The notes under the pieces are model-generated. The model was not told the DNA's origin. It searched no databases and saw only the letters and a program-made list of their open reading frames with translations. The translations under genes were made by a program, and so were the position numbers. A stretch of DNA of 64,000 nt, taken from contig JAENZE010000004.1 in the NCBI GenBank assembly GCA_016841425.1, positions 92,821-156,820 on the forward strand, given 5' to 3'. The DNA comes from Syntrophomonas sp. (lineage in GTDB: Bacteria > Bacillota > Syntrophomonadia > Syntrophomonadales > Syntrophomonadaceae). This document shows positions 22,877 through 47,480 of this stretch, piece by piece (the first letter of the stretch is position 1; the number at the start of each line of letters is the position of its first letter).

Positions 22877-23211
22877 CGTCCTATCGTTACTCACCTAATT
22901 AATTAAAAGACGCTCATGCAATGTCCATAACTTATCGATAAAAACTAATAAAGTAAAAATATAAAATATATTTAATTTTCTGCCAATATAGGGTATTATT
23001 ATGCTAATATGTGTTTTAAACCAGGACCTTATATCTATTTAATATTATTAATTGTGATTAGAGGACTAAATATACTTATATATGGTGAAGAAAGGGGATG
23101 TGCGATGGAGATTTTTGGCCAGTAAATTCTTATTTAATTAGGGGTTTTCTCAAGTAAATTTATTTACTGATGTTTGATAGTTACGGGAGTCATTCTCAGT
23201 ATGGGAGATTA

Positions 23212-24384
23212 ATGAAGGGGGAAATAGTGGTGATTTCTACACAAGCTATAGATGCCTGCAAAGAAATGTCCGAAATATTGGTAAAGATGATACCTGGTGG
23301 GGTATTATTTGTGGTAGTCGAAGGCAATCAAGTTGTATGGATGAAACAATCGGATTCATTTACTATCGAATTATTTAAGATTGGGCATAAGTTAGATGAA
23401 TCTACTACCAGCATGAAGTCAATTCGTGCGAAAAAGGTACTAAATGAAAATGTTCCTCGTTCAGTATATGGAATGAGATTGGAGATATCATCAATACCAA
23501 TAGTTAATGATGAAGGGGAAGCGGTAGGTGCATTCTCTATTGTAGTACCCAAATTGCATCCTGTTGCAGCAGCTTTTGGTGATTTTGCACCTATATTGGT
23601 AGAGATGTTTAACGAAGGGTCAATAATATATATGACAGATTTACAGAAAGTAGCATATAGACAGGAATCTAAAAACTGGTCTGTTACAATAGAGCCTACC
23701 CATCTGGGTCACGAATTAAGACCAGAAGATGTTGCTTATAAAGCATTAAAAGCTAAACAACCTATCACGGTGGAAATTGATGCTTCTAGATATGGTATTC
23801 CTGTAAATGTAGTAAGCTACCCGCTCCTGGATGACAAAAAAGAAAACCTGGTTGCTACTCTGGGAATAGTTACCCCAAAACAAACAGCTGTTGCTCTCCG
23901 TGATATGGCCAATAATCTTGGACATGGTCTGGGCAGCATTGGTGCTGCTATTCAGCAGCTGGCAGAATCTGCTTCGGACATACATACTAATGAACAGTCA
24001 CTAAATGCAAGCATTAAGGAAATTATTGACTATGCAGAACAGATTAACGAAGTTTCAGTATTCATAAAAGAAATAGCGGAGGAAACAAAGATGCTAGGTC
24101 TTAATGCGGCTATAGAAGCGGCCCGGGCTGGTGAAGCAGGCCGTGGTTTTGGCGTGGTTGCTGAAGAAATCAGGCATCTATCAGAACAATCCAAGGGTAC
24201 CGTACCAAAGATAGCACAATTAACTAATACTATAAAAGACATAACCAGGGAAGCAAATGAAAAAAGCAAGCTTTCTCTGTCCTCCGTTCAGGAACAGGCA
24301 GCAGCAACGGAGGAAATCACAGCCAGTATCCAAGAAATAACCGCCATGTCCGAAGAGTTAAATAATATTTCAAAGAAATTATAA
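23212..24384 (+). CDS. Soluble methyl-accepting chemotaxis-like protein with tandem sensor domain
   Basis: Cytosolic chemoreceptor-like protein with no transmembrane segment. The start is uncertain: ATG 23212 follows GGGAG and GTG 23230 follows GGGGG; the ATG 23170 is less likely. The N-terminal half holds two similar modules of about 105 residues, each with a hydrophobic strand, a YG-containing segment (SVYGMRL; SRYGIPV) and an ending like GAFSIVVPK or ATLGIVTPK. The C-terminal half is the MCP hairpin with the tip [20 protein letters not shown]. The ligand is unknown. No cheA, cheW or flagellar genes are in the window. A strong terminator follows. Confidence 0.82.
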
Positions 24385-41004: not shown

Positions 41005-44000
41005 ATGGATAAATTGCTGCACCTCGGTTTAGATGTTGGCTCAACTACTGTAAAGATTATCATTTTAGACCATTCTAATTCTATCGTTTATAGTAAATAC
41101 CAGCGCCATTACTCAGACATTAAAGTTACCATAACCAGAATGATACAAGAAGCTCATTTGGAATTCCCTGGTAGGGATGTGACTTTAAATGTAACAGGTT
41201 CTGGCGGCTTATCTGCCTCTAAGTTTTTAGAGGCTAGTTTTATTCAGGAAGTTATTGCCTGTTCCCAGGCGGTTGAAAAATACCTGCCTCAAACCGATGT
41301 TGCAATAGAGCTGGGTGGGGAAGATGCCAAAATAACCTTCTATGACAGCGGAGGAAGCATCGATCAGAGAATGAACGGCACCTGTGCAGGAGGCACTGGC
41401 GCATTTATTGACCAGATGGCGGCCATGCTTAAGACCGATGCTGCCGGTTTAAATGAAATGGCTCGTGACTATCATACGATATATCCTATTGCAGCACGAT
41501 GCGGGGTATTTGCTAAAACCGATATTCAGCCTTTGTTAAATGAAGGGGCGTCTAAGGAGGATATTGCAGCGTCTATCTTTCAGTCGGTGGTTAATCAAAC
41601 CATCGGGGGCCTGGCCTGTGGCAAATCCATTCGTGGACATATAACATTTCTAGGTGGACCGTTATATTTTTTATCAGAACTCAGGAATAGATTTATTGAG
41701 ACTCTGAATTTGGACCAGGAGCATGCTATTTTCCCGGCTAATGCCCAGTATTACCCGGCTATTGGTGCCTCCCTGGCATCGCAGTCTGAAGAGGCTGTCA
41801 ATCTCGATACACTTTTGCTTAGGCTGCATAATTTAAGTGACATTCAAACGGAAGATGTACGGCGATTGGACCCATTATTCTGGAATCATGCTGAACTACT
41901 GGAATTTAAAGCCCGACACCAGACTCATATTCTGGAGCGCGCAAGTCTGGATAATTTCCAGGGGGACTGTTTCCTGGGAATAGATGCCGGCTCAACTACT
42001 ACAAAAGCTGCTTTGATAGATAGCAAAGGTAAACTTTTATATTCATATTATGCCAGCAACGAAGGCAGTCCTTTAACCAGCACCATGAATCTTCTGCGGG
42101 ATTTATATGATAGTTTGCCTGAAGGAGCTATCATTAGAAATTCTACTGTAACCGGTTATGGGGAAAGCTTGATAAAATCAGCTTTTTCTGTAGACCTGGG
42201 TGAAGTAGAAACTATGGCCCACTATCGTGCTGCGGAATATTTTCTGCCCGGAGTTGAATTTATTCTAGACATCGGTGGGCAGGATATGAAATGCCTTAAA
42301 ATAAAGAATGGGACTATTGACAGTATTATTTTGAACGAAGCTTGCTCCTCTGGATGCGGGTCTTTTATTGAGACCTTTGCTCAATCCTTAAATATGAGTG
42401 TTCAGGAATTTGCTGAAAATGCTCTGATGGCTGAACATCCAGTTGATCTCGGTACCAGATGTACAGTTTTTATGAATTCTATGGTTAAACAAGCACAAAA
42501 AGAGGGTGCTACCATAGGTGATATTTCGGCCGGTTTGTCTTATTCAGTAATTAAAAATGCTCTCTTTAAAGTCATCAAACTGAGAAACACTGATCAACTA
42601 GGCGATAAAATCGTAGTTCAAGGCGGGACTTTTCACAACGATGCAATTCTGAAAAGCTTTGAGAATATTGTGGGGCGAACAGTAATAAGACCTGATATAG
42701 CAGGTATAATGGGAGCTTTTGGAGCAGCATTGATTGCATGGGAGAAATATATTCCCGGTGAAGAAAGTAAGCTAATCAAGAGTTCTGCTCTGTATGATTT
42801 TAGCTATAGAAGTTCTATGGCTAGATGTGAGGGCTGTTTAAACAACTGCCTGCTAACCATTAATACCTTCAACGACGGCAGAGAATTTACCTCGGGAAAT
42901 CGCTGTGAAAAAGGGGCTGGTATTGATAAGAAAGAAAGTAAACTGCCAGACCTTTATGATTATAAGTTGAGGAGGCTGAACCGCTATGTACCTCTGAAGG
43001 CAAAAGAGGCATTACGTGGAACCATAGGTATTCCTATGGTACTCAATATGTATGAGAATTATCCATTCTGGTTCACCTTTTTTACCCGATTAGGTTTCCG
43101 GGTGGAAAGATCTCCTCGTTCATCAAAGAAAATCTTTGAACTAGGATTAGAGACCATACCATCAGAATCGGTCTGTTATCCAGGCAAGATGGTACATGGG
43201 CACATAATGGCTCTGGTCAATCGCGGTGTAAAAACCATATTTCACCCTTGTATAATATACGAAAAGAAGGAGATTTCAGATGCATCCAATCACTTCAATT
43301 GTCCTATAGTAATTTCATATCCGGAAGTCATTAAAAATAATATGGATATCTTGCGAGACAAGCATATTAAGTTTATGAACCCCTTTCTTCCCTATGAAAA
43401 CAAAAAGCGCTTGATCAAGAGACTTTATGAGGAAATGGAAGTTTATGGTATATCGAAACAGGAAATCGCCTCCGCTGTGCAAGCAGCCTGGGAAGAAGAA
43501 GAACAAGCCCGGAAGGACATAAGGCAAAAAGGAGAAGAAACTCTGCAGTACCTGAAAGATACTGCCCAAAAGGGTATTGTACTGGCTGGACGACCCTATC
43601 ACATTGATCCCGAGATTAATCATGGTATTCCCGGATTGATAAATTCAATGGGTTTTGCGGTTTTAACCGAAGACTCCATCTCTCACCTGGGTCAGGTTCA
43701 GCGACCCATTAGAGTGGTTGATCAATGGATGTATCATTCCAGACTGTATGCAGCAGCCAGTTATGTTGCAGCTAGAAATGATTTGGAACTGATACAGCTT
43801 AATTCCTTCGGATGTGGTTTAGACGCTGTTACCACCGATCAAGTGGAAGAGATCCTGGAATCGGCCGGGAAGATCTATACCTGCTTAAAAATTGATGAAG
43901 GAAGCAACCTGGGATCTGTAAAAATCAGAATTAGATCTCTTGTTGCCGCCATGGAAGATCGGCAAAAGTCTGGATTTAAACCGGATTTTGAACCAGCAGT

Positions 44001-45321
44001 TCAGAGCCGGCGTCCATTTACAGAAGCTATGCGCAGTCGGCATACCATAATATGCCCGCAGATGTCACCTATCCACTTCGAACTGGCCCAGAATCTTTTT
44101 GCATCAGAGGGATATAATATAGAGGTTTTGCCCTCAGTTGACAGTCATGCAGTTGATGAAGGTCTTAAATACGTTAATAATGACGCTTGCTATCCATCCA
44201 TTTTAGTAGTGGGGCAACTGATATCGGCTTTGAAATCTGGCCGATATGATTTGAATAATACCTCGGTTATAATATCCCAAACTGGAGGAGGTTGTAGAGC
44301 AACTAATTATATAGCCTTTTTACGCAAAGCTATGAAAGATGCTGGCATGGAAAACATCCCGGTTATTTCAGCTAATATTACCGGTCTCGAAGCCAACCCT
44401 GGATTTAAAATTACCCCAGCACTGTTTAAGAAGGTGACCATGGGAATAATCTACGGCGACTTGCTCATGAGAGTGCTTTATAGGGTCCGGCCCTATGAGA
44501 AAATACCCGGTTCGGCTAATCTTCTTTTCGAAAAATGGATTAATCTGTGTAAGCAACAGCTAATGATAGGGGATATGTACACCTTCCGTAAGTATATTAA
44601 ACAGATCGTTAGAGAATTTGATCAACTGGAGATTGGGGATGGGAGAAAACCCCGGGTAGGGATTGTAGGAGAAATACTGGTCAAATACCACCCTACTGCA
44701 AATAACAATGTTATTAATACTGTTGAAAGTGAAGGCGCAGAAGCCGTAGTACCAGATTTACTTGATTTCTTTACCTTCTGCGCATATGACCTTATTTACC
44801 GTCATCGTTATCTAGCTGGAACATTAAAGGGCAAGCTACTAGGTATGTGGTTTATAAAGTATTTCGATAATTGCCGCCGGGATATGAAAAAGGCCTTGCA
44901 TCGGAGCAAGAGATTCGATGCGCCTTGTTCAATTTATGACATGGCTAAAAACGCCTCCGGGGTAGTTTCCCTGGGTAACCATACCGGTGAAGGCTGGTTA
45001 TTAACTGCAGAAATGATAGAGCTAATAGAAATGGGCGTGCCCAATATTATTTGTATGCAGCCTTTTGCCTGTCTTCCTAACCATGTTACAGGAAAAGGTA
45101 TGATTAAAGAACTGAAGCGGCAGTACCCTGAAGCCAACATAGCAGCGATAGACTATGATCCGGGAGCCAGTGAAGTAAACCAGTTGAATCGAATCAAACT
45201 AATGCTGTCAGTTGCTTTTAAGAATATGAATACCCCGTATGAAAAGTGCGATACTCCTCAAGAAAGCAAGTGTACCACAGTCCCAGAGGGGACTGGTATT
45301 ATCAAGCAAAAAACCAGTTAA
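41005..45321 (+). CDS. Giant 2-hydroxyacyl-CoA dehydratase activase-type protein (two BadF/BcrA ATPase domains plus DUF2229 and HgdB-like part)
   Basis: The 1438-residue fusion belongs to the CoA-enzyme activase family. Two ASKHA ATPase domains are present: the first with [16 protein letters not shown] near residue 7 and [12 protein letters not shown] near 130, the second with [15 protein letters not shown] near 325 and [12 protein letters not shown] near 448. A Cys-rich link CEGCLNNC...NRCEKG follows near 610. A DUF2229 region begins [18 protein letters not shown] near 672. The C-terminal part near 1055 holds NNDACYPS, typical of the HgdB-like part. Activators use ATP to push an electron at low potential into dehydratases or benzoyl-CoA reductases; no dehydratase subunit is adjacent. 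The target is unknown. Confidence 0.9.
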
Positions 45322-45323
45322 AC

Positions 45324-45368
45324 ACAAATTAATAAGATAGGTACCAGGTACCTATCTTATTAATTTGT
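45324..45368. repeat. Perfect 21-bp inverted repeat between convergent genes
   Basis: ACAAATTAATAAGATAGGTAC at 45324-45344 (arm of 21 bases) and its exact complement at 45348-45368 flank CAG. It could be a bidirectional terminator, as the activase and MCP fusion genes converge here. It could also be a REP-type palindrome: a half-match ATAGGTACC lies near 51876. Confidence 0.85.
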
Positions 45369-45384
45369 CATTTCTAAATCACTT

Positions 45385-46242
45385 TTAAGCAAGATCTGCC
45401 AGATTATGAGCCAGTGCCGTTAGTTCCTGCGCCATGGCTTCAACCTGTTGTATGCTGGAGGAAACCGCCTGAGTTTGTTCCGCCTGTTTTCTGATGGTTT
45501 TACCCGCATCATTTACTCCACCAGCTATGATCTTGACTGAATCTTCAATGTTTTTTAATATATCAGATATTTTACCTACTGATACTGTACTTTCTTCAGC
45601 TAGTTTTCTTACCTCATCAGCAACCACTGCAAAACCTTTCCCGTGTTCACCACTCCGAGCCGCTTCAATAGCAGCATTAAAGCCCAGTAATTTAGTTTGA
45701 GTGGCAGTGAAATTAATAATATTTAATACCTCGCCGGTTTCATTTAAACGATCCACAGCCTGATTGGCGTTGTCCACCAGGTCATCACCTTGCCTGGAGA
45801 CTTCATTAGCATAAGCGGAAACTTCCTCCATAGCACGGGTTACTGTCTGCATGGTTGCGGAAAGATCGTTGGACATATCAGAAAGTTTTACCGCTTCGTT
45901 GTGCAGTTTTACCATCATCAATTCCCGGCTTTCCAATAAGGTCATCATCAAATTAGCCCCATGAGAATCTACCACAGCGGTATGGTCCTTTTTGCTGGCG
46001 GTTATTATTTCTTGAACCTTGCTGCTTCCAGTTGCTTCGATAATCAAATCACAGTTAGCCAGAGAAAAGACATCATTCAGGTCGGTATAAATTTTTACAC
46101 CGATTTCTTTTGCCAGCATCATACCGGGCGCTGATGGATTGGCATCACAGATTCCCATTACCTTGATGCCTTCAATGCCCTGCAGTGCTTTTAGAATAGA
46201 ACTGCCACCCTGTCCAGCACCCACAATAATAATATTAGTCAT
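45385..46242 (-). CDS. Rossmann (NAD-binding) domain fused to a methyl-accepting chemotaxis signalling domain
   Basis: The 285-residue protein starts at ATG 46242 after GGGAGGGG; a TTG one codon earlier is too close. Residues 1-105 are a dinucleotide-binding fold like the NAD-binding part of homoserine or aspartate dehydrogenases: [26 protein letters not shown], then [13 protein letters not shown]. No catalytic domain follows. From about 110 to the end is a chemoreceptor coiled coil with [20 protein letters not shown] near 190. No transmembrane segment is present. A soluble receptor that reads NAD(P)H or its bound ligand and signals to CheA/CheW is the natural inference. No che genes are in the window. 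Confidence 0.85.
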
Positions 46243-46496
46243 CAATTACCCCTCCCGTTCCTAAACCTAGCTTATCCATTCTACAAATATCTATATTTTC
46301 CTGCTATTATGTGAAAATATTCCTTATTTATTATATATTTTTTAACTAAACCAGCCCACAAAAGAATATTGGATACTTACACTAATTAATTAGGGACTTT
46401 AATCACAATATTAATATGTGAATATTCAGAAAATAATATCTGTTCACTCCAAATATAAGTTAAAATGAAGTTAACATGGAAAAGGGGGAAATTAAT

Positions 46497-47480
46497 ATGG
46501 TTGATCAAATATTTCCCGGTCTATATAGATTAGAAATACCTTTACCAGGCAATCCATTAAAATCTGTAAATTCTTATCTTATTAAAGGAACTGATAAAAA
46601 CCTTTTAATAGATACCGGGATGAACCGTCCCGAATGTAAAAAAGCCTTTAATCAGATTTTTCAGGAACTGAATATTGATCTGCACCAGACCGATATATTA
46701 ATTACCCACCTGCATCCTGATCATGCAGGATTAGTACCATATCTGAAATCGCCTCATTCCAGAGTATATGGAAGCAGAGCAGATACTGAGATGCTGAGCA
46801 ATTTGAGCGATAGCAGCGGCAGCAGTCAGTATTGGAGTGACCTGGCCGACTTCGCAGTGCAAAATGGGTTTTTGGAGGGGAATCAGGCCATAAGCACTCA
46901 CCCATGTTTCAAGTTTAAACCCGAACATATAGAATACGATGTAATAGAGGATGGAACGAATATTGATATTAACGGAATATCGCTTAAATGCATATTGACT
47001 CCCGGACATAGCAGGGGACACGTATGTTTATACGATGAAGATAAGCAGATTTTATTCTCCGGGGGTCATATCCTGGCGGAGATTACGCCTAATATCGCTT
47101 TGTTTAGCAATGATTATAATCCTCTGCATGATTACCTGCAGAGCCTGGATAAGGTTTTTAATTTGGAGGTAAGAATGACCCTTCCGTCACATCGATCCAT
47201 TATTTTTGATCATCAGGAACGGATATCTGAACTGAAGAAACACCATCAGCTGCGCTGTGAAGACATTCTTAAAATACTAGAATATGGTCCGGCCAACGCA
47301 TACGATATTGCTTCCCGAATGACCTGGGATCTGAAGCATTACCAGTGGGAGGAATTTCCTTTGCCCCAGAAGTGGCTTGCAACTGGGGAGGTCATCGCCC
47401 ACTTAAAATATCTTTGTGAGAGCGGGAGAGTAGTTGAATATGATGGTGAGGGTGTTACCCTTTTTTCTTTACCCGTTTGA
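46497..47480 (+). CDS. Metallo-beta-lactamase-fold hydrolase
   Basis: The 327-residue protein starts at ATG 46497 behind AGGGGGA; an ATG at 46476 is less favoured. The MBL core has LLIDTGMN, the HLHPDHAG metal motif near residue 74, TPGHSRGHVCLY near 170, and a late SHRS histidine. The segment where the bridging Asp is expected (SGDH in relatives) reads SGGHIL, so one metal ligand is missing. A C-terminal winged-helix-like region (residues 250-327, from CEDILKILEYGP) matches the LACTB2/glyoxalase-like group. The substrate is unknown; relatives cleave thioesters, RNA or other esters. Confidence 0.85.
   Translation: MVDQIFPGLYRLEIPLPGNPLKSVNSYLIKGTDKNLLIDTGMNRPECKKAFNQIFQELNIDLHQTDILITHLHPDHAGLVPYLKSPHSRVYGSRADTEMLSNLSDSSGSSQYWSDLADFAVQNGFLEGNQAISTHPCFKFKPEHIEYDVIEDGTNIDINGISLKCILTPGHSRGHVCLYDEDKQILFSGGHILAEITPNIALFSNDYNPLHDYLQSLDKVFNLEVRMTLPSHRSIIFDHQERISELKKHHQLRCEDILKILEYGPANAYDIASRMTWDLKHYQWEEFPLPQKWLATGEVIAHLKYLCESGRVVEYDGEGVTLFSLPV

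Follow-up and report, generated by a model that had tools for sequence, protein, structure and literature searches.

A soluble chemoreceptor of Syntrophomonas with a Rossmann module as its candidate NAD(H) sensor

Closest described systems

Cytosolic chemoreceptors are common, and the signals of most of them have not been established. Receptors of the Aer type, which couple intracellular redox sensing to CheA, carry FAD in a PAS domain and are membrane-anchored. YfmS of Bacillus subtilis, a cytosolic protein of 286 aa for which there is an integrative model with CheW (9a72), has been termed a soluble chemoreceptor (PMC7542364). Chemoreceptors (MCPs) are divided into classes defined by heptad number (PMC6943060).

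The window analysed here, a stretch of 64,000 nucleotides of Syntrophomonas sp. DNA, includes a gene for a 285-aa protein in which a Rossmann module leads directly into an MCP signalling hairpin. YfmS was the top match of the full-length model, and the two hairpins, 34% identical in sequence, agree to 0.8 A over 167 columns. However, YfmS is not among the 50 best Foldseek matches of the model of the Rossmann part alone, which suggests that its sensor half is of another kind. The closest fold and the best profile match of the module are both found in the acylating acetaldehyde dehydrogenases (DmpF/PheF), but the Rossmann-MCP protein lacks their catalytic/dimerisation domain and has the signalling hairpin after beta5 instead. 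The NAD-binding domains of Gfo/Idh/MocA enzymes and homoserine dehydrogenases (PF01408 and PF03447) share the GxGxxG loop and the Asp after beta2 with the module, which differs from them in having no second enzyme domain, an APG motif of its own and signalling outputs. The NADH sensor Rex, which was also reached by the profile search (a weak match, E 0.0023), likewise uses a Rossmann domain as a sensor. In contrast to Rex, the 285-aa protein begins with beta1 of the Rossmann fold, has no winged-helix DNA-binding domain and no DNA binding, and has an MCP hairpin as its output; membership of the Rex family was rejected because the N-terminal winged helix is absent. Membership of the Aer group was rejected because Pfam finds no PAS domain in the 285 aa, and the likeness to Aer in coupling redox sensing to CheA holds only if the redox signal proposed below is correct. 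A search of the open-access literature yielded no description of a Rossmann-MCP fusion or of the Rossmann module, though this is weak evidence.

Our main reading, to which we assign a probability of roughly 0.6, is that the gene encodes a soluble chemoreceptor of 24H size with a stand-alone, predicted NAD(H)-binding Rossmann module as its sensor.

Architecture of the protein

The features of the gene and its product are as follows.

45388..46242, minus strand: whole coding sequence, Rossmann module plus MCP signalling hairpin (ORF, Pfam, orthologue alignment)
45967..46242, minus strand: Rossmann module, residues 1-92, beta1 to beta5 and the intervening helices (Pfam, AlphaFold, Foldseek)
45646..45966, minus strand: descending helix of the MCP hairpin, residues 93-199 (AlphaFold)
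45625..45702, minus strand: hairpin tip, residues 181-206, where the trimer and CheA/CheW contacts lie (most positions invariant in 19 orthologues)
45388..45645, minus strand: ascending helix, residues 200-285, 86 residues or about 12 heptads, 24H size (AlphaFold)

Two Pfam families describe the N-terminal part (residues 3-98), NAD_binding_3 (PF03447) with E 3.6e-6 and GFO_IDH_MocA (PF01408) with E 6.2e-6, both above their curated cut-offs. MCPsignal (PF00015) covers residues 143-282 with E 3.5e-26 and 92.5 bits against a cut-off of 34.6. The full-length AlphaFold model, built on a 31-sequence alignment, has a mean pLDDT of 90 and a pTM of only 0.51, and hence the placing of the module relative to the hairpin is uncertain. 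In this model, strands at residues 2-7, 26-32, 66-69 and 89-91 with helices between them are followed by a single helix, continuous with the Rossmann module, that runs unbroken from residue 93 to 284.

An earlier note, made from the sequence alone, had described a Rossmann fold of about 105 residues with no catalytic domain. The second part is correct: Pfam finds no catalytic or substrate domain of a dehydrogenase, and helix 93-284 comes directly after beta5. The length was overestimated, as the core ends at about residue 92, where the helix of the AlphaFold model takes over. An active dehydrogenase was rejected because both Pfam and AlphaFold show the catalytic domain to be missing. The maximum Kyte-Doolittle hydropathy over a 19-residue window is 0.99 and the protein therefore has no transmembrane segment, as the note had also proposed.

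The note had called the hairpin tip complete, and this agrees with the MCPsignal match far above its cut-off and with tip residues N189, E193, R196, G198, G201, F204 and V206, which are invariant in 19 orthologues. By residue count, the C-terminal arm (86 residues or 12.3 heptads) fits the 24H size, which has about 12 heptads per arm. The alignment shows two pairs of residues reminiscent of CheR/CheB methylation sites, EE at E139-E140 and QQ in the C-terminal arm, although they match the standard consensus incompletely.

The predicted nucleotide cleft

The motifs of the module are listed below.

46204..46221, minus strand: GxGxxG phosphate loop GAGQGG, residues 8-13 (96-99% conserved in 73 modules)
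46144..46146, minus strand: acidic residue of NAD type (Asp33) where beta2 ends (96% conserved)
46123..46131, minus strand: module-specific APG motif, residues 38-40 (A 86%, P 86%, G 82% with A in 15%)
46027..46038, minus strand: EATG motif after beta4, residues 69-72 (T71 97%, G72 93%)
45952..45969, minus strand: DSHGAN motif at residues 92-97, where beta5 ends and the signalling helix makes its first turn (orthologue alignment, AlphaFold)

Modelled alone (24 sequences), the module has a pLDDT of 95.6 and a pTM of 0.88. Its neighbours in Foldseek are the acylating acetaldehyde dehydrogenases 1nvm, 4lrt and 7z3s together with enzymes of the Gfo/Idh/MocA type, a number of which have structures with bound NAD; the closest superpose at an rmsd of 1.8-2.5 A over about 95 residues. 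The best reading of these matches is that the module derives from a dehydrogenase lineage and has been cut off before the catalytic part.

The C-terminal ends of Rossmann strands form the rim where dinucleotides are held, and an Asp after strand 2 is the usual determinant of NAD over NADP. When 73 modules from proteins of all output types were aligned, nearly all of the strongly conserved residues lay at the C-terminal ends of beta1, beta2, beta4 and beta5 of the AlphaFold model (G8 99%, G10 96%, G13 99%, D33 96%, T71 97%, G72 93% and A96 84%), and G8, G10, G13, D33, T71 and G72 are invariant in the orthologues. A nucleotide pocket in a structural model had been suggested as a check on the earlier claims; the fold is modelled with confidence, and the conservation pattern supports a cleft that is preserved rather than degenerate.

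The Rossmann part might instead be a scaffold for dimerisation or array building with a remnant pocket, the protein then being a constitutive component of the array. We regard this as very improbable. Between species the Rossmann core does evolve faster than the hairpin (dN/dS of 0.08-0.13 compared to 0.04-0.07), but it too is under strong constraint, which acts on the ligand cleft in at least five output types and in two independent phylum samples.

Proposed ligand and signal

NAD(H) as the ligand, redox as the signal, dimerisation, and motility as the output are what we infer from this architecture. In the proposed mechanism, a dimer would hold a dinucleotide in a cleft lined by the GxGxxG loop, Asp33, EATG and DSHGAN. 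A change of ligand (NADH versus NAD+, or bound versus empty) would shift the signalling helix and hence the four-helix hairpin, and do so directly because the helix begins at DSHGAN, the last motif, on the rim of the cleft. The shift of the hairpin would then alter CheA activity via CheW, and thereby swimming. That the NADH/NAD+ ratio as such is sensed is perhaps the case, and we hold this part of the proposal only tentatively.

The module may bind another nucleotide, such as a CoA thioester, NADP(H), ADP-ribose or other adenine nucleotide, and the receptor would then report that metabolite; in a fatty-acid oxidiser this could be the acyl-CoA load. Acylating aldehyde dehydrogenases, the closest folds, use both NAD and CoA, similar Rossmann cores are able to take up NADP, CoA and further adenine nucleotides, and the Pfam model CoA_binding (PF02629) is above its cut-off in one long-form relative (L029). 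However, 96% of the modules have the Asp33 seen in NAD-preferring domains, where it binds the adenosine ribose, and the GxGxxG loop has the dinucleotide form and is not the CoA-ligase motif. We consider a ligand other than NAD(H) unlikely.

A less likely arrangement again is that the nucleotide stays bound as a structural cofactor, while a small metabolite beside it, at the EATG/DSHGAN end of the cleft, acts as the true signal. Consistent with this, the residues at the ends of beta4 and beta5 (E69-G72, D92 and A96) are conserved, like the dinucleotide motifs, and dehydrogenase relatives hold their substrate near these ends. Yet no substrate-binding domain is left in the 285-aa protein, and conservation at the end of beta5, which varies by output type, has a second explanation in the coupling to the helix.

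Orthologues and distribution of the module

Orthologues with 90-92% amino-acid identity and the same local gene order are present in two other Syntrophomonas sp. metagenome-assembled genomes. The distribution was determined with whole-genome profile searches, as a single-sequence contig scan reached only the closest relatives. Among 63 genomes of the class, 29 have strong module matches; this count leaves out weak matches (E over 1e-4) in G034, G045 and G057, and the G057 match (L038), when inspected, was DapB-like. About 19 of the class genomes have the short form, nearly always 285 aa; in the long form (about 493 aa), approximately 220 residues of another input domain separate the module from the MCP part.

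In the phylum search, 111 of 398 genomes have a module match at E 1e-8 or better. This number includes at least one false positive, as the match in G404 (L081, E 8.9e-9) belongs to an ordinary enzyme resembling Gfo/Idh/MocA. In a second phylum sample (299 genomes, drawn via a Betaproteobacteria-titled record) 97 had a match. The one match in the plasmid collection is in a 2.6 Mb replicon of Acetoanaerobium noterae, where it is unannotated. The host genome has a single copy of the Rossmann module. In a Syntrophomonas relative (G021/G446 C27:184262-184598), a copy of the module is broken up into separate frames of 69 and 101 aa and is probably a decayed paralogue.

Apart from the assembly being a draft of 27 contigs, nothing speaks for a fusion produced by chance or by assembly, and the near-fixed length of 285 aa and the domain order recur in dozens of independent genomes, which makes this explanation negligible. 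A chimera or assembly artefact was rejected on the orthologues, the near-fixed length and the low dN/dS in both parts.

Output domains that follow the module

Forty loci from the phylum search were fetched and representatives were scanned for domains. The same N-terminal module precedes MCPs of three sizes, sigma-54 activators (with one or two PAS domains, AAA and a Fis-type HTH), a GAF-PAS-HD-GYP protein and a PAS-HTH protein. In the second phylum sample, inspection of the best 10 of 97 matches showed signalling proteins only, namely GGDEF proteins, GAF-HisKA-HATPase kinases and mini-MCPs of 210 aa; matches beyond these 10 may include enzymes. Taken together, no fewer than five kinds of signalling protein carry the module. 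The module tree, based on 112 columns, has poor resolution and served only to show that the outputs cluster, with about 9 output changes compared to 25.7 when shuffled. Conservation at the end of beta5 differs between the output types.

In the mini-MCPs of 210-225 aa (L078, L079, L080, L119, L121 and L122) the module is followed by a very short hairpin that retains the tip, and these may be a separate output type. The C-terminal part of the sigma-54 activators with the module (L071, L072 and relatives) resembles PrdR, the proline reductase regulator (NF041552), below the model cut-off.

The earlier note had held that such a sensor would matter in a syntroph close to its energetic limits. The spread of the module over the phylum sample, a second phylum and other outputs shows that it is no speciality of syntrophs, and the energetic-limits argument thus describes only one possible use.

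The gene and its surroundings

The coding sequence (285 aa) is followed by a stop codon at 45385-45387, giving an ORF span of 45385-46242 on the minus strand. It is a single gene with its own ribosome-binding site.

46249..46256, minus strand: ribosome-binding site GGGAGGGG, read from the sequence, 6 bases before the ATG at 46242

Purine-rich sites of a similar kind are found upstream of the orthologues. To the left lies a large gene (41005-45321, plus strand) resembling 2-hydroxyacyl-CoA dehydratase activators and to the right a divergent gene (46476-47480, plus strand) for a metallo-beta-lactamase-fold protein, both identities being read from the sequence. Between the convergent ends of the left neighbour and the Rossmann-MCP gene, an inverted repeat around AATAAGATAGGTACC/GGTACCTATCTTATT (45322-45365, found by eye) is a likely bidirectional terminator. 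No sigma-D-type (motility) promoter of the pattern TAAA-N12-17-CCGATA was found before the gene or its orthologues in 29 upstream regions.

The gene order is kept within Syntrophomonas only; no neighbours are consistently shared with the window in eleven loci from other genera, and no che or redox genes are linked to the gene. The context thus gives no hint of the signal.

Chemotaxis partners and other soluble receptors

The host genome (G000), a 3.58 Mb draft of the Syntrophomonas group that is 100% complete and has the window on its contig 7, encodes one CheA (on C15), CheW domains, CheR and two flagellins, in line with the earlier proposal that the MCP domain could feed a CheA pathway. Eight places in it have an MCP domain above the cut-off. 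In the phylum sample, CheW is present in 110 of the 111 module genomes and in 227 of the 287 genomes that lack the module (337 of 398 overall; Fisher p 1.3e-8), and in the class sample in 28/29 and 23/34, respectively (p 0.004), both tests treating genomes without correction for shared ancestry. The phylum exception (G226) carries the sigma-54 type, and the class exception (G013), an 80% complete genome, has a long-form MCP.

The window encodes one further soluble receptor.

23170..24384, plus strand: second soluble MCP of the window, 404 aa (domain scan; comparison by eye)

Its input domain of approximately 230 residues has no Pfam match and no Rossmann module. By eye, it resembles the insert of the 493-aa Rossmann-MCPs, with motifs like VxGTYGVFxPxLHPVAKAFD and GTFGITTPR, and it looks like an undescribed cytosolic sensor domain of its own. 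Elsewhere in the host genome, L008 (104-985 and 1048-1872, on C27) includes a 274-aa soluble MCP with a different input domain; the gene some 60 bases upstream of this MCP has the NAD-kinase-like motif GGDGTLLEAF. L003 (1525-2355, on C17) encodes a small soluble MCP of 276 aa with yet another form of cytosolic input domain. The genome is rich in membrane-free receptors.

Implications

Conservation of the module in more than 100 sampled genomes and in front of at least five kinds of signalling protein indicates that it is probably a widespread, undescribed sensor, and we infer that what it senses is the NAD(H) state of the cell. Curated libraries recognise this type of sensor only as a piece of an enzyme. 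More broadly, the module could be a general pyridine-nucleotide sensor, unnamed as such in Pfam and NCBIfam, that, in two or more phyla, passes the NAD(H) state directly to the main signalling outputs of bacteria, namely chemotaxis arrays, histidine kinases, sigma-54 transcription and the synthesis and degradation of c-di-GMP, though we give this somewhat less than even odds.

A dinucleotide pocket built straight onto a signalling helix points to a ligand that can be tested. If the reading is correct, bacteria could let their internal redox state guide their swimming with neither a membrane sensor nor a flavin sensor. As the GGDEF, histidine-kinase, HD-GYP and sigma-54 outputs share the module, a single binding result would help to annotate many signalling proteins.
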